Shown here piece after piece: positions 18,446 to 27,063 of a stretch of DNA of 64,000 nt. Under the pieces are notes generated by a model, which made no database searches, was not told where the DNA came from, and saw only the letters and a list, made by a program, of their open reading frames with translations. The first letter of the stretch is position 1. Each line of letters opens with the position of its first letter. A program made the translations under genes and the position numbers. Source of the stretch: Ferrimonas lipolytica (GTDB lineage: Bacteria > Pseudomonadota > Gammaproteobacteria > Enterobacterales > Shewanellaceae). The stretch lies in the NCBI RefSeq assembly GCF_012295575.1, contig NZ_CP051180.1, forward strand, positions 3,906,001 to 3,970,000. The letters run 5' to 3'.

Positions 18446-19162
18446 TTACATTTCAGCGTTGTGATAAACGTTCTGGACGTCGTCGCAATCTTCTAACACG
18501 GCCAAGAACTTCTCAAAGGCTGCCACATCTTCGCCTTCAATCTTGGTGTAGGTTTGCGGTGCGAAGGTGATCTCTTCCATCTCAAACTTAATCTCAGGCA
18601 TGGCGTTGGTCAGTGAGGTTTTCACTTTGAAGTACTCGGTATGTGGTGCGAATACAGACGTCATGCCGTCTTCAACTTCCACATCGGTTACGTCAACATC
18701 GTCCATCATCAGGATCTCAAGGATCCCATCTTCATCGTCGCCGGCGAAGGCGAAGATGGCTTGATGATCGAACATGTGTGCCACAGTACCTGGGCCGCCT
18801 AGTTTAGCGTCGTTCTTAACGAACGCTTGGCGAACTTCGGTGAAGGTACGTTTGTTGTTGTCGGTTAAGCAATCAACGATAACCATGATGTTACCTGGGC
18901 CGAAACCTTCGTAACGCATCGCTTCGTAATCTTCACCGGCACCGCCAACAGCTTTAGCGATGGCCTTGTCGATCACGTGTGAAGGAACCTGTTCCTTCTT
19001 CGCGCGTTCAATCAAGCTGCGCAACGACATGTTGGCTTCTGGATCTGGGCTGCCGTTTTTGGCAACAACGTAGATCTCTTTAGAGTACTTGGAGTAGACC
19101 TTGGTTTTTGCACCAGCGGTCTTGGCCATAGAGGCCTTACGAACTTCGAAACTGCGTCCCAT
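18446..19162 (-). CDS. YebC/PmpR-family transcriptional regulator (YeeN type)
   Basis: The conserved start [15 protein letters not shown] lies at 19162, nine codons inside the open frame, giving 238 residues. It has the three-domain YebC fold: [59 protein letters not shown] and the C-terminal [11 protein letters not shown]. This variant matches the second YebC paralogue of Vibrio. YebC proteins act in transcription regulation and, more recently, in relief of ribosome stalling at prolines. The ribosome site is weak. Confidence 0.85.
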
Positions 19163-19596
19163 CGGAAAATCGCTCTTAAGTTGGTTCAAACAATGCTGGT
19201 GGGAGAGTTTAACAGCTGAGCAGAGAAGGGCAAAATTCGACAGCTGAAAACGCCGTATTGACCGGCGCTAACGGCTGCCGCAGTGACCGTTGAGTCAATT
19301 ACTACTGCCGTTATTGTGCCATTTTGATTTTGGTTGGTTAGTTACAATTATTTGATTTATAGCAACAATAATTATTTTTAAGGTTCACGGTTAGCATTCG
19401 TGTTCGCTATTTAGCTGATGTGAGTGGCTCGTAAAATCGCTGCTTAACTATTTGGCCATGGCCGCGACAACGCAGCCCAGTAGAATTGATATAAGCGAAG
19501 ATTGTTGAGCTTAAGCAAGCGATCTGAGCAGCGAATTTCAGCTAGATTACACTTTGCGTAACCCATAATCCGATGGCTTACGGTGGCCGTTAGGGT
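19163..19596. other. Intergenic region, nothing clear
   Basis: About 430 bp, with an AT-rich stretch at about 19340-19382 that could hold a promoter for the YebC-type gene. No coding frame or RNA recognised. Confidence 0.4.
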
Positions 19597-21327
19597 TTAC
19601 CACTCTCCTATCATCAAGCGACTTTTAACCCCTTGTATCTGTAAGCTCATCGCATCAAAGACAGCACCGAACTCCGTGCATTCAATGGCAAGATTTGGCA
19701 GTGATAATACGGCTTGCTGGAAAAAACATCGCTGCAAACCCTCATCGGAATAAGCCAGTTGCCACCAATTGAGAATACGGTCTTGGCTGGCATTGAGGCG
19801 ATATTGAGTTGGTACGCGGGCTGATTTAGTGCTGTTCTCTTGGTCGCTGCTAGGTAATAAGTTCCAAAAATCGTTATTTGGCCAGTAAGCAAAAGGTAAG
19901 CAGTGATCGATATGACGCTGCTTGGGTGTCAGTGGTTTACCGCTCCAAACACTGTGGATGAGTTGGCCTTGCTGTTCGAGTTTGGTTACTCGTTTTCGAA
20001 CCTCATTGGTATTGTGGTGGGCATCAAGCCAAGCCAGGTGGCGATAGTAAAACTCTAAATTAATCTGTTGTCGTTGTTCGCGTTCACGATTGCGTTGATA
20101 GCCGCGCATCTCATTAATCCATTGGTTCACCACCAATGGTTCTATCCAGCTATGGTATAGGCGCATACAGTCCCACAGCGATTCTGGCAGCACAAAGTAG
20201 CCAAAGCTGGCCAGAAACGGTTGGTCAATTACCGTGGTGGTTGAACGTGAGCGTCGATGGCGCTCAACTTGGAAGTAGGTGTTGGCTTTGTTGTTGCCGT
20301 CGTACGTATAGGCGACAGGACCAGCCTTGATGGTGCTGATGATGTCGCCTAATGCTTGTTGAAGCGCGAGAGCTTGCTCGTCAAAAAACAGCGCCCCAAT
20401 TGCAAAATCATCGGCTTTAAGGTGCTGTAGCTTTTGCCAGCCGGACTTAACAAACCCCAAACTGGTATTGGGGTTACTGTGTTGTTGCAATTGACCATCA
20501 TCAACCAAACGTTTGAACTGCTTTAACCAATACAGTGCAATCAGTCCCAGTGGCAACACTACCTTATTGTCATGACGCTCAATTACTGCGCCGGAATGAG
20601 CATCTGCAACTCGTAATAAGGTGCGTAACAGCGCCAATTTATAAGTAGCGGATTTACTGTCATTGACGATGATATGGCGGACACGGGTGAGATCACCGCT
20701 GCCATCGTCAGGCAAGCTCAATACCACGGTTTGCCACTGCACTTCACTGCGTCCAAGCGTATCTTGAGATAGTTCGCTCTTGTGGTTTACCCGCAGAGCT
20801 TGGTCTTTCGCTAGGCGCTCAATTTGAGCAACGGAGACCGGATAGGCAACCCGACCATCGGTAAACTCGCCATGGCGCAGGGTGATAACCAATTTACCGT
20901 TAGCTGCTAGGAGTTTGGCCAATTTTCGAAACGCCCGTTCGCGACTGCTATCGGCAAGGTGCATCCACACCGCGCTGACTAAAATAAGATCGAACTGCAT
21001 CCCTAACGCAATTGCTTTGCTGAGCTCAGGAAGACGATCGTCCAACCATTGCACTGAGCCGTGCTCAAGTTGTTTAGTGTTACGCTGGCCGTGTTGGCGC
21101 ATTGCTGTATTAGGCTCAAGCGCAATAACACTGCAATCTTGGCTTGCCATCCACTGCGCATCGCGGCCATTGCCTGCGCCGACATCTAAGATCCTCATGC
21201 CTGAACGTGGCCAGTGTCCTTGCCAATTGCTATGCGCTTTTTCAAAGGGGACGCTGCCATATTGACTGTTGAGGGTATCGGCGTTGGTCTGATAGAAGGA
21301 ATCGGTACTATTCAATTCAAGGCTCAC
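19597..21327 (-). CDS. SAM methyltransferase - HNH nuclease fusion
   Basis: The frame is open to 21423, but that start (TTG) lies inside a terminator hairpin. I prefer the GTG at 21327, just before the family-like TDSFYQTNADTLNSQY; 576 residues. Residues ~1-210 are a class I methyltransferase (motif I ILDVGAGNGRD at 46-56; LVSAVWMHLADSSRERAF), UbiE/Methyltransf_25-like, with no DNA-methylase NPPY motif. A middle domain starts at about 218 (VNDSKSATYKLALLRTLLRVAD). Near the C terminus is an HNH-type site: SGKPLTPKQRHIDHCLPF (462-479), NDFWNLLPSS (485-494), NSTKSARVP. It could be a nucleic-acid defence or repair protein. Confidence 0.7.
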   Translation of the reverse strand: MSLELNSTDSFYQTNADTLNSQYGSVPFEKAHSNWQGHWPRSGMRILDVGAGNGRDAQWMASQDCSVIALEPNTAMRQHGQRNTKQLEHGSVQWLDDRLPELSKAIALGMQFDLILVSAVWMHLADSSRERAFRKLAKLLAANGKLVITLRHGEFTDGRVAYPVSVAQIERLAKDQALRVNHKSELSQDTLGRSEVQWQTVVLSLPDDGSGDLTRVRHIIVNDSKSATYKLALLRTLLRVADAHSGAVIERHDNKVVLPLGLIALYWLKQFKRLVDDGQLQQHSNPNTSLGFVKSGWQKLQHLKADDFAIGALFFDEQALALQQALGDIISTIKAGPVAYTYDGNNKANTYFQVERHRRSRSTTTVIDQPFLASFGYFVLPESLWDCMRLYHSWIEPLVVNQWINEMRGYQRNREREQRQQINLEFYYRHLAWLDAHHNTNEVRKRVTKLEQQGQLIHSVWSGKPLTPKQRHIDHCLPFAYWPNNDFWNLLPSSDQENSTKSARVPTQYRLNASQDRILNWWQLAYSDEGLQRCFFQQAVLSLPNLAIECTEFGAVFDAMSLQIQGVKSRLMIGEW

Positions 21328-21420: not shown

Positions 21421-21446
21421 CAAAGCCCTTCAGTTGAAGGGCTTTG
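21421..21446 (-). terminator. Palindromic terminator, probably that of pepF
   Basis: CAAAGCCCTT / AAGGGCTTTG is a perfect 10-bp stem with a 6-nt loop; on the minus strand it runs into TTGTTTT. It is now separated from the pepF stop by MITE copy 2. Confidence 0.8.
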
Positions 21447-21449
21447 ATT

Positions 21450-21648
21450 GGCTGTGTCGACGGCACATTCTAGTATGCATTAGGGAGGAGCTTCGCCCCC
21501 TTTGCCTTAGGTCGCAGTCCAAAACGCTTCGCTGGACTGCTCCAATGCGGCAGAAGATCAACGGCGGTAGTGCTTTCCCTTGTACCAAAACTAGCCTAGC
21601 CGGTGCTTTAACAGTATTGGAAGAACAACACTTAGTTGGTACACAGCC
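21450..21648. mobile_element. MITE-like element, copy 2 (B end right), deletion derivative, 199 bp
   Basis: Ends GGCTGTGT and ACACAGCC are intact, but about 80 bp next to the left (A) end are missing: GGCTGTGT is joined directly to CGACGGCACATT. Flanks are CTTTGATT and GTTTGATT (7 of 8 match). The GCAGTCC / GGACTGC stem is complete. It lies between the pepF stop codon and the palindromic terminator. Confidence 0.85.
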
Positions 21649-21675
21649 GTTTGATTTGGCCAAGCAAAGGGAAGC

Positions 21676-23526
21676 TTACTTACCCTGCTTCTTCAAGATG
21701 GCTTCCATCTCATCCATGATGTCATTCATTTTGCGCATCAAGGCTTCGTATGGTTCTGGGCTGGCCAGATCTACGCCAGCGGTTTTAACGATGTCGTGTG
21801 GGTAAGCATTACCACCAGATTTTAGCATGGTTAGGTACTTGTCGTAGGCTGGCTTACTCTCAAGTACGTCTTCAGCAAACTGAGCCGATGCAGCGATGCT
21901 GGTGGCATACTGGTAGACGTAGAAGTTGTAATAGAAGTGCGGCACGTAGGCCCATTCGATGGCGTAGGCTTCGTCGATCTTCATGATGCCTTCATCGTGG
22001 CCGTGGTAGCGGCGCAGCAAATCTAGGTAGATCTCGTTGATGCGTGTATCAGACAGTGGCTTACCGGCTTCAACGGACTCGTGAATAGCCAGTTCAAACT
22101 CAGCAAACATGGTTTGACGGAAGAAGGTACCGCGAATCCCTTCCAGCGTTTGGCCTAAATAGTACAGGCGTGCATCGTCGTCGGTGGTGGTTTCTTTTAC
22201 GTACTTCGCTAACAAGTGCTCTTGGAAGGTTGAGGCAATTTCAGCGACGTAGATAGAGTAGCCAGAGGTCTGCCATGGCTGCGCTTCGTTGCTGTATACC
22301 GAGTGAATGGCATGGCCCCATTCATGCGTTAGGGTTCGTACTTCTGAGTAGTTGTCGTTGTAGTTCATCAAGACATAAGGATGCACATCGTAAGTGCTGC
22401 CGCTCATGTAGGCGCCCAAACGCTTACCGGTGGTTGGGTAGGTGTCCATCCAGCCATCTTCCAAACCCTTGGCAATGCGGCTGGTGTAGTCTTCGCCCAT
22501 CGGTGCCAGCGAGTCCATCATCATTTGCACGCCTTTGTCGATAGGAAACTCCATCGAGCTGTCACCCAACGGCGCATAGATGTCGTAATAACTCTGTTCT
22601 TCCAGTCCCAACATACGTTGGCGCAGTTTCAGATAACGGTGGAAGGTAGGCAGGTTGTCGTTGGTGGTTTTTACCAGCTGGCGGTACACATCTTCTGGGA
22701 TGTTGTCGTCGGCAACAGAAGCGGCGAGGGCGTTCGGGTAATTACGCGCTTTAGCGTAGAACACATCGTTGTTTACTTGGCTGTTTAAGGTAGATGCCAA
22801 GGTGCGACGGTAGTTGTTTAGGCTGCCGAAGAAGGTATCGAATGCTTGCTGCCGAGTAGCGCGATCTTCACTTACTCGCAACTTGCCGTACAACGATGGG
22901 TTAAGTGGTTGCTCCTTGCCATCAACCTCAATGGTTTGCCACGGTAATTCGGCGTTAACAAAGGTTCCAAAGGTAGTGGAAGCACCATTGGCCATGGTAC
23001 CCATAGACGCCAGTAACTGCTCTGACTCAGCACTCAAGGTATGTGCTGCGCCGTCAAGTATGCGTTGCAGTGGGAAACGGTACGCTGCCAGCGCCGGTTG
23101 CTCCGCAATCATCGCATCCACTTTGGCTTGGCCAATAGCAATAAGCTCAGGGTTGATGAAGCTGGCGTTCTGGCTGAACTGGTTGTATATCATGCGGATT
23201 TCAGCACGACGACCGGTGTTGTCGGAGTTACGAAGATCGGTATCGGCATTCAAACTGGTGTAGTTATTAAGGCGAGTTAGCTGCTTGGTCATCTCAAAGT
23301 AATGAGTGATGGCAGCCAACAACTGCTCGCTGTTGTCCAGTTTGCCTTGAAATTGCTTGATGTCACCCAGCTGGTTGTTGATCTCAGCTTTATGCTGTTG
23401 CCATGCATTCCAGTTTTGGTAAATCGGGATCAGATTCCAATTTGGGCTTTCTGGCAAGGTTACCTGTGCTTGAGCGTTGCCAAATATGGCTAAGGTTGCT
23501 GATAGGGCGATGAGCGTTTTTTTCAT
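21676..23526 (-). CDS. pepF: Periplasmic M3-family oligoendopeptidase F
   Basis: A 616-residue zinc peptidase with a Sec signal peptide (MKKTLIALSATLAIFGNAQA), so it acts in the periplasm, unlike the usual cytoplasmic PepF. The catalytic motif HEWGH is in TLTHEWGHAIHSVYS (about residue 400), with the downstream glutamate in VAEIASTFQEHLL; the substrate-binding HFYYNFYVYQYATS is also typical. It likely degrades short peptides. The terminator has been displaced by MITE copy 2. It is divergent from the SNF2 gene. Confidence 0.9.
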   Translation of the reverse strand: MKKTLIALSATLAIFGNAQAQVTLPESPNWNLIPIYQNWNAWQQHKAEINNQLGDIKQFQGKLDNSEQLLAAITHYFEMTKQLTRLNNYTSLNADTDLRNSDNTGRRAEIRMIYNQFSQNASFINPELIAIGQAKVDAMIAEQPALAAYRFPLQRILDGAAHTLSAESEQLLASMGTMANGASTTFGTFVNAELPWQTIEVDGKEQPLNPSLYGKLRVSEDRATRQQAFDTFFGSLNNYRRTLASTLNSQVNNDVFYAKARNYPNALAASVADDNIPEDVYRQLVKTTNDNLPTFHRYLKLRQRMLGLEEQSYYDIYAPLGDSSMEFPIDKGVQMMMDSLAPMGEDYTSRIAKGLEDGWMDTYPTTGKRLGAYMSGSTYDVHPYVLMNYNDNYSEVRTLTHEWGHAIHSVYSNEAQPWQTSGYSIYVAEIASTFQEHLLAKYVKETTTDDDARLYYLGQTLEGIRGTFFRQTMFAEFELAIHESVEAGKPLSDTRINEIYLDLLRRYHGHDEGIMKIDEAYAIEWAYVPHFYYNFYVYQYATSIAASAQFAEDVLESKPAYDKYLTMLKSGGNAYPHDIVKTAGVDLASPEPYEALMRKMNDIMDEMEAILKKQGK

Positions 23527-23853: not shown

Positions 23854-26800
23854 GTGACGCTAATTTTTGATGACGCTAGAGTGCGTCGTTTATTTGAAAA
23901 GAATACCTTTGCTCGCGGAGAAGCGCTGTTTGAGCGAGGCAAGGTTATCTACTGCGAAGTAGAACAAGAGGGTCGCCGGGTTTTCGGTGAAGTCGCCGGT
24001 ACCTATAGCCGCGACTACGAAGTGACGGTGGCCTTCAGTAAAACCGGCTTAACCAGCGAATGTTCCTGCCCTGTGGCCAATCGTTGTAAGCACGCAGCGG
24101 CGTTATTATTGGCAGCATTAGAGCAACAAGGCAGTAGCGATACCCTCTACCAAATGTGGTTAAACCGAGTTGAACAGGTGCTAAACCCACCTAAATGGGC
24201 AGCCAGCGATGGCCCTGAGCTTGAAAAGCTACTAGCAGTGAGACTGCTGCATCAAAACAGTGAGCGCAGCCATCAAGCGGTTGTGGTTAAAACCGGTTAC
24301 CGCCGTCGTCTAAAAAACGGCGGTTTAAGCAAGGTTGTCGATCGCTCCCCCCGAGAGATGCTAGCGACCTACCGTGACGATATGGCACTGAACGCTTTTG
24401 ATCGGGAAACCCTGCAGCTATTAGAAACCGGCACCGAGCCATACAGTCACGGCCCACGTTTCTTCCATTCTGGTCTTCACCAATTGGCGCTCAAACGTTT
24501 GTGTGAACGAAAACAGCTGTATTGGGATCAATCACTCACGCCGTTGTCGTTGGCTGGGGTGCGCAAGCTGAATTTTCATTGGCAGCAAGAGGAAGCCAAT
24601 CAAACCCTTGAGCTGCAACTTGATGGTTGTCGTAATTGGCAGGTGCTGCCTTTTCGCCACCCTTGGTATGTGGATTGTGAAAATAACCAAACGGGGCCGA
24701 TCGACACGCCTCTATCCAGCGAGCTGCTGTATCAATTATTTAGCCTTCCTGGACTATCTGCCGACTCCGCTAAGCATTTCTCTGCCAATGTGTTGGGGCA
24801 ATTCAGTACCCAGCAGATAGAGCTGCCAGGGGAGCGCGCCGAGCAGGAGTTGATTGCGCCACTCAAACCACAATTACACTTGTGGCGACGGGATGGCAGC
24901 TATGTTGCTGCGTTTTCGTTTGGTTACGATGACGTTCGCATTAGCCCAATTGTACTGCGTAAGCCAGAGCTGCGCTTGTTCGAAACCGATCGTGGCACCT
25001 TATGGGTTCAACGCGATACCTTTAACGAGCAAGAAGCTTTTGTGCAGTTAGAGCAGTTCGGCTTAGCGGTATGCCCAGGAGCTGAAGATCTGGTGGCGTT
25101 GTTGTTGCAAGCGGAGGTAGAGAATCCGCGGGCCTTTTGGCAGCAGTGGTTAGGTCAATGGCGCGATGTATTAGAGCAACAAGGTTGGGACATCACCTTA
25201 GCTGATGATCTTCACCTTGAGCCGGTTAAGATCGCCGGTTTCGCGCTTAATATCGAACAGCATGATCGTTGGTTTGACCTCGGCTTGAGCATCGAGCTGG
25301 AAGGTGAAGCCGTGTCGCTGGTACCGCTCCTATTGAAGTGGCTGGCCAGCAATAGTGACTGGCGTGAACCGCGGCAAGATCTGTTGCTGGAGCGCACCGA
25401 TGGCGCGCCATTGCAGATTGGTTACCAAGCGTTACGACCAATTATTGCAGTGTTAGCTGAGCTGGCAGACACCACCCCGCGGGAAACGGTTAAGCTCAAT
25501 CAACATCAAATTACGCTGTTACCAGAAGATGGCCCCAATAGCCGTTGGCATGGTGGCGAAGAGCTGCAACAGTTGGCTGAGTGCCTGCACGATTTCGATG
25601 GCATTGAGGCCGTTACTCCGCCAGCGGGGTTGCAAGCTACCCTGCGTGATTATCAGCAACAAGGGCTTAACTGGCTCAGCTTCCTCCATCAGTATGGTTT
25701 TGGTGGCGTGCTGGCGGATGACATGGGCTTGGGTAAAACTATTCAAACTTTGGCGCACCTGCAACGACTTAAAGAACACGGTAAGTTGAGCAAGCCAAGC
25801 TTATTGATCTGTCCAACCAGTCTCGTTGGTAATTGGCGTCGCGAGTGTGCCAAATTTACCCCAGAGCTAAATGTGTTGGTGTTGCATGGTAGTCGTCGTC
25901 AAGATGATTTCAATCGAATCGAACAAGCGGACTTGGTTATCACCACCTATCCACTGATCCATCGCGATATCGACACCATGGTAATGCACGACTTCTCGTT
26001 AATTGTGCTTGATGAGGCACAATCGATTAAGAACCCCAGTGCAAAAGCAACTCTGGCAATTAAGGATTTGAAGGGTGAGCAATGCATTGGCTTAACCGGT
26101 ACACCGATGGAAAACCACCTCGGTGAGCTGTGGTCGTTGTTTGATTTCGCCTTGCCGGGGTTCCTTGGCAGCCAAGGCCATTTCAATCGCCACTATCGTA
26201 AACCGATTGAACAGTGTGGTGATGAAGTGATGCAGCAGTGGTTGCTGCGTAAGATTGGTCCATTTCTGTTGCGCCGTACCAAGGATCAAGTTGCCACTGA
26301 ACTGCCGCCAAAGACAGAAATTATTAAGCGGGTAATGTTGCCACCGGCACAGCGAACCTTGTACGAATCGGTGCGGGCAACCATGGAAGCTAAGGTGCGT
26401 AAGCTGATAGAGCAAAAAGGCTTGGCCAAAAGCCGCATGGAGTTCCTCGATGCGTTGCTGAAACTGCGCCAGATCTGCTGCGATCCTAAACTGACCAAGC
26501 TGGATGAGGCCGAGAATGTGGAGGAAGCCGCTAAGCTGGATTACCTAATGGAGCAATTGCCGAAGATGCTGGCGGAAGGGCGTCGCGTGTTGTTGTTTTC
26601 ACAGTTTACGCAGATGCTCAGCCGAATTGAGCAACGGCTGTTGGATGAGGGCATCGACTACAGCATTCTTACTGGGCAAACCCGCAATCGTGAAGCCGCT
26701 GTTGATGCGTTCCAATCCGGTGATGTGCCACTGTTCTTAATCTCACTTAAAGCGGGTGGAGTTGGCCTAAACCTGACCGCTGCAGATACGGTGATCCACT

Positions 26801-27063
26801 TTGACCCGTGGTGGAACCCAGCGGCGGAACAGCAAGCGACGGACCGCGCTTATCGCATTGGCCAAGACAAACCGGTGTTTGTGTACAAATTGATTTGTGA
26901 GCACACGGTAGAGGAGCGGGTACTGGAGCTGCAACAAAGCAAACAAGCGCTGGCCGATAGCGTGTATGGCAAAGAGGTGGAGCTGGCAACCTTAGACGAT
27001 GGCGAACAGCTGTTGGCGCTGTTTCGTGACGACCCCCACCAAGAAACACGACAAAGTGTTTAA
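23854..27063 (+). CDS. SWIM zinc-finger SNF2-family ATPase/helicase
   Basis: A 1069-residue protein. A SWIM finger near the N terminus (Cys70-x-Cys72 ... Cys78-x-His80, in CSCPVANRCKHA) is followed by a long middle region and a SNF2 motor: DDMGLGKTIQ (motif I, about 622-631), DEAQ (II, about 720), LTGTPMEN (III), LFSQFTQML, LKAGGVGLNLT and QATDRAYRIGQ (V, VI). The architecture matches stand-alone bacterial SNF2 proteins that remodel protein-DNA complexes or RNA polymerase; no target is shown. The start is GTG with a poor SD. A strong terminator follows. Confidence 0.88.
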   Translation: MTLIFDDARVRRLFEKNTFARGEALFERGKVIYCEVEQEGRRVFGEVAGTYSRDYEVTVAFSKTGLTSECSCPVANRCKHAAALLLAALEQQGSSDTLYQMWLNRVEQVLNPPKWAASDGPELEKLLAVRLLHQNSERSHQAVVVKTGYRRRLKNGGLSKVVDRSPREMLATYRDDMALNAFDRETLQLLETGTEPYSHGPRFFHSGLHQLALKRLCERKQLYWDQSLTPLSLAGVRKLNFHWQQEEANQTLELQLDGCRNWQVLPFRHPWYVDCENNQTGPIDTPLSSELLYQLFSLPGLSADSAKHFSANVLGQFSTQQIELPGERAEQELIAPLKPQLHLWRRDGSYVAAFSFGYDDVRISPIVLRKPELRLFETDRGTLWVQRDTFNEQEAFVQLEQFGLAVCPGAEDLVALLLQAEVENPRAFWQQWLGQWRDVLEQQGWDITLADDLHLEPVKIAGFALNIEQHDRWFDLGLSIELEGEAVSLVPLLLKWLASNSDWREPRQDLLLERTDGAPLQIGYQALRPIIAVLAELADTTPRETVKLNQHQITLLPEDGPNSRWHGGEELQQLAECLHDFDGIEAVTPPAGLQATLRDYQQQGLNWLSFLHQYGFGGVLADDMGLGKTIQTLAHLQRLKEHGKLSKPSLLICPTSLVGNWRRECAKFTPELNVLVLHGSRRQDDFNRIEQADLVITTYPLIHRDIDTMVMHDFSLIVLDEAQSIKNPSAKATLAIKDLKGEQCIGLTGTPMENHLGELWSLFDFALPGFLGSQGHFNRHYRKPIEQCGDEVMQQWLLRKIGPFLLRRTKDQVATELPPKTEIIKRVMLPPAQRTLYESVRATMEAKVRKLIEQKGLAKSRMEFLDALLKLRQICCDPKLTKLDEAENVEEAAKLDYLMEQLPKMLAEGRRVLLFSQFTQMLSRIEQRLLDEGIDYSILTGQTRNREAAVDAFQSGDVPLFLISLKAGGVGLNLTAADTVIHFDPWWNPAAEQQATDRAYRIGQDKPVFVYKLICEHTVEERVLELQQSKQALADSVYGKEVELATLDDGEQLLALFRDDPHQETRQSV

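Follow-up and report, generated by a model that had tools for sequence, protein, structure and literature searches.

Here, we describe a protein of Ferrimonas lipolytica in which an intact-looking SAM methyltransferase (MT) and an intact-looking HNH nuclease, both shown by computation, are joined in one chain by a middle region that we call TYK. Judged by sequence comparison, this fusion is a real protein family, and gene pairs in which its halves occur separately are the most informative evidence on its role. The initial annotation had listed defence as one possibility; defence, rather than metabolism, becomes the probable role given that the MT pairs with several unrelated restriction nucleases. 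We propose, at roughly even chances, that the fusion is a compact restriction-type module for targeting DNA as self or non-self within a single chain, with a putative substrate, mark, and anti-phage effect that we infer.

The gene lies in a window of 64,000 nucleotides, the whole stretch of DNA that was analysed (Table 1). The initial coordinates of the reading frame stand, with the strand specified as minus: translation of the same interval on the plus strand contains 25 stops, and the ORF is real on the minus strand. The motifs quoted at that time are present in the protein (LDVGAGNGRD 47-56, VNDSKSATYKLALLRTLLRVAD 221-242, IDHCLPF 473-479, NDFWNLLP 485-492, and NSTKS 498-502). The longest frame opens with a TTG at 21423 and comprises 608 aa. 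In the alignment, homologues begin at about residues 5-11 of the shorter form (576 aa), which favours the GTG at 21327 as the start.

Table 1. Features of the fusion gene and its surroundings, in window coordinates.
Feature	Coordinates	Strand	Evidence
Methyltransferase-TYK-HNH fusion gene, 576 aa	19597..21327	-	GTG start; stop codon 19597-19599
Class I SAM methyltransferase domain, residues 1-205	20713..21327	-	Pfam, invariants, model; LDVGAGNGRD, E71-P72, VWMH 120-123, LRHG 150-153
Middle TYK region, residues 206-300	20428..20712	-	NDxKxxTYKLALLR ... LPxGLxALYW; homologous to N-terminal part of separate TYK-HNH proteins
Mostly helical connector, residues 301-430	20038..20427	-	AlphaFold2 model and alignment
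C-terminal HNH region, residues 431-576	19600..20037	-	Pfam HNH_4 469-506, invariants, beta-beta-alpha in model; D474-H475, N489, N498, K501
YebC/PmpR gene	18446-19189		NF009044, 327 bits (cut-off 196)
pepF	21676-23526		TIGR00181, 573 bits (cut-off 490.55)
Copy of ~200-bp interspersed repeat, between fusion and pepF	21440..21670	+	At least 46 genomic matches, with 40 of 322 candidate stretches scored
Terminator-like hairpin, downstream of pepF	21421..21446	-	Consensus match only

The fusion is flanked by pepF and a YebC-type gene, as first annotated, and both neighbours score over their NCBIfam cut-offs. The description of the gene as standing alone is accurate for the window locus only; its split relatives are tightly paired with nuclease genes. 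The hairpin downstream of pepF, a consensus match only, suggests that the fusion may be transcribed on its own. yebC is present in all 14 genus genomes searched. At one of these loci (G010), a gene for an SNF2-type helicase begins 276 bases after yebC, with neither fusion nor pepF there; at another (G013), the fusion lies between yebC and the SNF2-type helicase, together with other genes. No fusion was seen at five further yebC loci fetched from the genus, and their neighbours differ. This variation across the genus indicates that the fusion is an accessory gene in a variable spot.

Two further observations concern the surroundings. An SNF2-type helicase adjoins pepF in the window (23854-27063), with strong PADLOC matches to DpdE and ZorD and NCBIfam helicase models below cut-off only; it was the sole match in a PADLOC scan of the six neighbours of the fusion. 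The genome also holds a second, decayed fragment of the C-terminal half (G000:C1:2811862-2812101; loci L002 and L070; 46% identity, two TAG stops), and a copy of the ~200-bp repeat lies about 1.6 kb from it.

The N-terminal part carries motif I and a Rossmann-like fold, which identify a class I SAM methyltransferase by Pfam, invariant residues, and predicted structure. Pfam families over cut-off on the fusion are Methyltransf_25, 12, 23, 11, and 31 (PF13649 on the MT end at 46.7 bits, cut-off 27) and HNH_4. The MT part of the AlphaFold2 model (whole fusion, mean pLDDT 86.9, pTM 0.79) matches solved class I MTs with Z scores of about 19-22, the alignments spanning approximately residues 1-208. 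These are mostly small-molecule MTs, and the matches include ChlM, NodS, UbiG, the phosphonate enzyme DhpI, the tRNA enzyme METTL6, and protein N-terminal methyltransferases. When the whole fusion was used in a structure search (VIA), the matches were taken up by the MT domain and were uninformative on the remainder. In NCBIfam, the methyltransferase matches fell far short of cut-off and Cas9 reached 13 bits; PADLOC gave partial matches only (mad2 52 bits, PtuB 17.2 bits, and Cas9 11 bits).

As initially noted, the domain lacks an NPPY motif: no [NDS]PP[YFW] follows strand 4, where the sequence reads FDLILVSAVWMHL. The step from this absence to a small-molecule or RNA substrate fails, since the fold matches span tRNA, protein, phosphonate, and small-molecule enzymes. 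Thus, the fold and the absent NPPY do not settle the substrate, and lack of the motif does not exclude a nucleic acid. Net charge is 0 for the MT and HNH segments and +4 for the TYK region, which is no strong DNA-binding signature.

At the C-terminal end, PF13395 (HNH_4) scores 24.9 bits (cut-off 22), and this profile match coincides with the active-site pattern D-H ... N ... N..K. The beta-beta-alpha fold of HNH nucleases is present in the prediction, with strands at 471-475 and 490-494 and a helix at 495-500 (block pLDDT 69-82 over 471-510). The initial annotation had made its HNH assignment depend on such a fold around the IDH motif and on homologues that keep the DH and N residues. The model has this layout, and D/E-H...N...N..K is retained in 33 of 34 long fusion frames. 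The sole exception (L123) stops before the motif; this MT-TYK frame lies downstream of Zac-type genes and adjoins a frame that is presumably transposase-like. The proposed union of MT and HNH in one chain is likewise borne out, by Pfam matches over cut-off at both ends and by 16 further fusions with the motifs.

These 16 other full-length fusions keep the motifs at 42-69% identity to the window protein. Across the 17 aligned fusions, the invariant residues are D48, G50, G52, G54, R55, D56, E71, P72, W121, H123, R151, and G153 in the MT; N222, D223, K225, and K230 in the middle part; and D474, H475, N489, N498, and K501 in the HNH domain. The strict form of MT motif I, D.GAG.GRD, occurs in 31 of the 34 long frames.

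The middle part had been called unique, a description that agrees with its lack of any match in Pfam and NCBIfam and of an informative match in the PDB, where a profile search (E 10) found nothing below E 0.68 and listed one unrelated chain and no sulfur-binding domain (SBD). We considered TYK as an SBD because of a look-alike motif, ATYK versus the SPHK of SBD (THK in 7 of 34 motif-bearing fusion segments); the SBD motif uses H-R/K (PMC6224610). This candidate gained no support: hhalign probabilities were 0.1-0.5, and the reversed control (0.3) was higher in the last test. The model of a separate TYK-HNH protein was poor (pLDDT 60.9), with a best Foldseek match of E 0.28, and was set aside.

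Fusions are patchily distributed. Of 152 genomes of the same family, counting that of the window, 68 give a match at E 0.001, a figure that includes distant methyltransferases and HNH-only matches. Full-length fusions are found in 16 of these genomes, as 17 copies; a truncated fusion occurs in one (G134), and broken copies in three more (G024, G039, and G139). At E 1e-20, and with the window genome counted, matches were found in 17 of 369 genomes of the class sample and 34 of 398 of the phylum sample. Plasmids also carry the family. Of 72,556 records, 50 give a match, and most of the protein is present in nine, which come from Pseudoalteromonas, Azospirillum, Roseomonas, Sinorhizobium, and Sphingobium; it is annotated as a methyltransferase in eight of these and is without annotation in one. 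A single phage record of 50,697 matches, with an MT-like gene near an integrase. One genome has two full fusions about 40 kb apart and an MT-only copy (G095:C1:2151619, 2191502, and 2220906).

Many genomes encode the MT as a separate gene of about 200-260 aa. For 24 rows of our MT tree, the gene after the MT, overlapping it or at most 61 bases off, encodes a ~350-aa TYK-HNH protein, with the TYK motif close to its N-terminus and an HNH domain at the C-terminal end; both of the proteins scanned with Pfam exceed the cut-offs for HNH_4 and HNH. A profile of the separate TYK-HNH proteins matches fusion residues 208-497 (hhalign prob 97.3, E 2.2e-11). Thus, the fusion is the joined form of an MT/TYK-HNH gene pair.

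The MT also pairs with other nucleases. Of the 92 MT rows, 36 are fusions, including four that are broken or cut short. Another 35 are followed by a nuclease or helicase gene of the same orientation: 24 + 2 TYK-HNH, three SBD-HNH, three PLD/helicase, two SF2 helicase, and one dndFGH. The partner is the third gene downstream in one case (L152). Altogether, 71 rows are fused or have a downstream partner, and 21 have no same-direction nuclease neighbour. Profiles for the partners were built from the partners themselves; independent checks cover all three SBD-HNH proteins and, by PADLOC or Pfam, the PLD/helicase proteins of L126, L129, and L150. The SBD-HNH partners (L149, L062, and L151, respectively) match the sulfur-binding domain 8h0l at E 3.5e-28, 2.2e-24, and 1.2e-29 and the HNH 6yex at about E 8e-31, 1e-28, and 2e-29; NF045808 gives 52-72 bits, below cut-off. 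Partners with PLD and ResIII-helicase domains are found at L126, L127, and L150, and a convergent gene of that kind at L129. Those of L126 and L150 match PADLOC mREase_IV (E 2e-96 and 2e-89) and are presumably of SauUSI type; that of L127 has helicase-type NCBIfam matches only, below cut-off. In the window's own genus, one MT (L055) is separated by 15 bases from dndF downstream, after which come dndG and dndH (697, 549, and 2558 bits for DndF, DndG, and DndH).

Incomplete sets also occur. Three MT-only copies have no detected nuclease half (L147, L044, and L061), and the truncated copy of G134 (L050) lacks the SAM-binding half while its TYK-HNH half is intact. A second, divergent MT type (DAGCGSxRD) is seen directly upstream of a PLD/helicase gene (L150:6215-6811) and upstream of a TYK-HNH gene (L247:8366-8965).

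We find that partner types change across the MT phylogeny. The maximum-likelihood tree holds 92 of 96 MT domains, short segments having been dropped (L050, L069, and two of L072). The window MT groups with that of G013 (support 100/99), and the dndFGH-linked MT shares a clade with four fused ones (100/90). Two SBD-HNH-linked MTs and one TYK-HNH-linked MT group together (97/99) within a 15-row clade that contains 11 fused MTs, the window's included (99/86). Partner labels require 20 changes on the tree, compared with 47.6 when labels are shuffled, and the fusion label changes at least seven times on starred branches. These changes across supported clades indicate that partners were exchanged, and that fusion or fission took place, several times. 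Eleven of the 21 partnerless MTs fall together in a clade (95/94) that may have another role. Conservation of five residues (Y23, H32, R159, D189, and R193) is 98-100% among the 79 nearer rows and far lower among the 12 distant ones.

Five MT loci lie within dnd clusters. One has the MT before dndFGH, dndBCDE about 12 kb off, and a distant second MT domain after dndE (G006). Another has the MT, a 203-aa gene, a TIGR04096 putative methyltransferase, and TYK-HNH in two frames, then dndBCDE (G773). A third has the MT and then TYK-HNH, convergent with dndBCDE (G439), and a fourth has dndBCDE, a 180-aa gene, TYK-HNH, an opposite gene, and then the MT (G759). The fifth is on a Rhizobium phaseoli plasmid with DndC and DndD annotated. 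DndC was named by profile search and the DndE of G439 by PADLOC/profile match; we presume the remaining dnd gene names. DndC exceeded its cut-off in six of all 48 genomes searched and, among the 32 with a fusion, in one, a survey without an MT-free control set in which some genomes had been picked for nearby dnd genes and one (G060) had no MT match. Three further fusion genomes have DndC below cut-off (G007, G134, and G790), and the window genome has no TIGR03183 (DndC) match. DndC being rare in fusion genomes and unmatched in the window's, the fusion does not seem to need phosphorothioation by its own host. A comparative paper on dnd clusters mentions, in the portion available, cytosine methylases and other nucleases, and not the MT/TYK-HNH pair (PMC10853773).

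Two kinds of enlarged MT were seen at dnd loci: a 465-aa protein with a distant C-terminal MT domain overlaps dndE in a dndBCDE operon (L187:14148-15545), and two dnd-linked MTs (L183:5557-6576 and L189:11209-12255) have an N-terminal extension of ~145-150 aa with a hydrophobic stretch.

TYK-HNH is closely tied to the MT. Its profile matches 18 of 349 sampled genomes at E 1e-10, and all 18 also hold the MT, a result that leans towards linkage because MT-linked loci supplied four of the seven rows of the profile; the sample overlaps the phylum sample. The 18 comprise 13 intact fusions, one broken fusion (G741), two genomes with an MT directly upstream (G728 and G645, the latter MT a distant relative only, at 49 bits), and two with both at the same dnd locus (G759 and G773). 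On plasmids of Tolypothrix, Leptolyngbya, and Hymenobacter, TYK-HNH has no MT listed adjacent; the Tolypothrix plasmid has a methyltransferase gene about 5 kb away, and the Hymenobacter record ends close to the TYK-HNH gene. A small gene of about 80-95 aa lies directly upstream of TYK-HNH at three loci without an adjoining MT (L175, L176, and L177).

The surrounding genes were scanned for defence-island enrichment. PADLOC matched 60 families among 121 proteins beside fusions, and type I R-M, Zac, DdmD, and PLD/helicase models were among them (121 of 126, five omitted for size; four fusion loci unsampled). In a control of 70 frames at yebC loci (of 80, with ten omitted), 34 families were matched, drawn from models of helicases and methylases; the fusion scan is not separated from its control. 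These counts are of families rather than of proteins matched, and they come from a simple ORF caller that took some frames on the wrong strand, at least four control frames being antisense to yebC.

We suggest the following mechanism for the restriction-type module. One MT family serves several unrelated nucleases; thus, DNA, the common substrate, is the likeliest target of the MT, or, at the least, the status of the DNA is controlled by the pair. The MT would act on DNA and write a mark, and the TYK-HNH part would bind DNA through the middle region and cut according to that mark. In the simplest form, marked self DNA would be spared; the polarity may be that the mark protects or that it licenses cutting. 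No target-recognition domain is visible in the MT, so it would be the nuclease half that selects the target, in the manner of single-chain type IIG enzymes. Several observations count against the module: the net charges of the segments, the 21 MT rows lacking a nuclease neighbour, the plasmid TYK-HNH genes with no MT listed adjacent, the defence scan that did not separate from its control, the single PADLOC match among the six neighbours, and the lean of the 18-genome count towards linkage. In addition, TYK-HNH lies upstream of the MT in G759, with an opposite gene between, and L050 retains its nuclease half without the SAM-binding half, which would be odd if the MT protects the cell and argues against a strict protector role.

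L050 also weighs against an unlikely alternative in which the MT is a guard or brake on the nuclease, by binding it, by methylating it, or through a small molecule, so that SAM depletion or an MT block frees the nuclease for abortive infection. The MT lying fused to or just upstream of a nuclease in 71 of 92 rows would suit such a guard, as would the missing target-recognition domain, a fold closest to small-molecule MTs, and the MT-only copies L147, L044, and L061. However, the partners (HNH_4, SBD-HNH, PLD/helicase, and DndFGH) are unrelated, and a common protein target for them is harder to envisage than DNA or a shared signal. The SBD-HNH partners, the PLD/helicase enzymes of the PADLOC type IV class, and the five dnd loci also lend themselves to a type IV-like scheme, to which we assign a distinctly small chance. 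The nuclease would attack modified foreign DNA, and the MT would edit or cap the modification on self or invading DNA (for phosphorothioate, by S-methylation). Such a scheme sits poorly with DndC over cut-off in only one of 32 fusion genomes, no match in the window genome, and a TYK region without profile kinship to SBD.

A role outside defence, in RNA metabolism or repair, is improbable to a similar degree. In that case, structured nucleic acid would be the substrate of the HNH and RNA that of the MT, as the tRNA enzyme METTL6 among the fold matches might suggest; patchy occurrence fits many roles. Yet the MT pairs with DndFGH, SBD-HNH, and PLD/helicase restriction enzymes, and the same patchiness, with presence on plasmids, speaks against such a role. 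A chance joining of an ordinary small-molecule MT to an HNH, with no joint function, has the top folds on its side, as these are mostly small-molecule MTs. We regard it as highly improbable, given the 71 of 92 rows that are fused or paired, the HNH pattern in 33 and strict motif I in 31 of 34 long frames, and the recurrence of MT pairs with other nucleases. There is also a slim chance that the mark written by the MT is none of the known base methylations but lies, for example, on the phosphate backbone or the phosphorothioate sulfur. The MT would then be a plug-in writer for DndFGH, SBD-HNH, PLD/helicase, and TYK-HNH, replacing phosphorothioation or acting alongside it.

Type IIG restriction-modification enzymes combine a nuclease and a SAM methyltransferase in a single chain. 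The fusion shares this arrangement and possibly the mode of target choice, but its MT is not an amino-MT (no [NDS]PP[YFW]), it has no recognised target-recognition domain, and its nuclease is a C-terminal HNH. Dnd systems are connected through the MTs in five dnd clusters, one of them directly upstream of dndFGH, and through TYK-HNH in three (G439, G759, and G773), whereas the window fusion stands alone in a genome without a DndC match. The best PADLOC match of the MT domain is mad2 of MADS (E 9.3e-15, residues 40-176), but it covers only positions 289-416 of 492, and no mad match occurs among the six neighbours. Septu (PtuAB) differs in that the PtuB match reaches only 17.2 bits and no PtuA appears among the six neighbours (for the helicase, among the best 25 families listed). 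EcoWI and SprMcrA, SBD-HNH phosphorothioate-dependent endonucleases, likewise use an HNH effector, and SBD-HNH takes the place of TYK-HNH beside the MT at three loci, but no profile kinship was found between TYK and SBD; the excerpts available of the papers on these endonucleases mention no such MT partner (PMC7461809 and PMC6224610).

None of the curated families in Pfam, NCBIfam, and PADLOC names the fusion or the TYK region, and no description of the fusion was found in open PMC text. MT and nuclease systems are known as a kind; what is new is the class of MT, its TYK-HNH partner, and its plug-in behaviour. If our reading is right, a widespread restriction module lies hidden in databases, with plasmid members annotated only as methyltransferases. 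The MT beside dndFGH and other nucleases would then point to a writer that has gone unnoticed in phosphorothioation and related systems, and its mark could conveniently be sought through the single-chain fusion.
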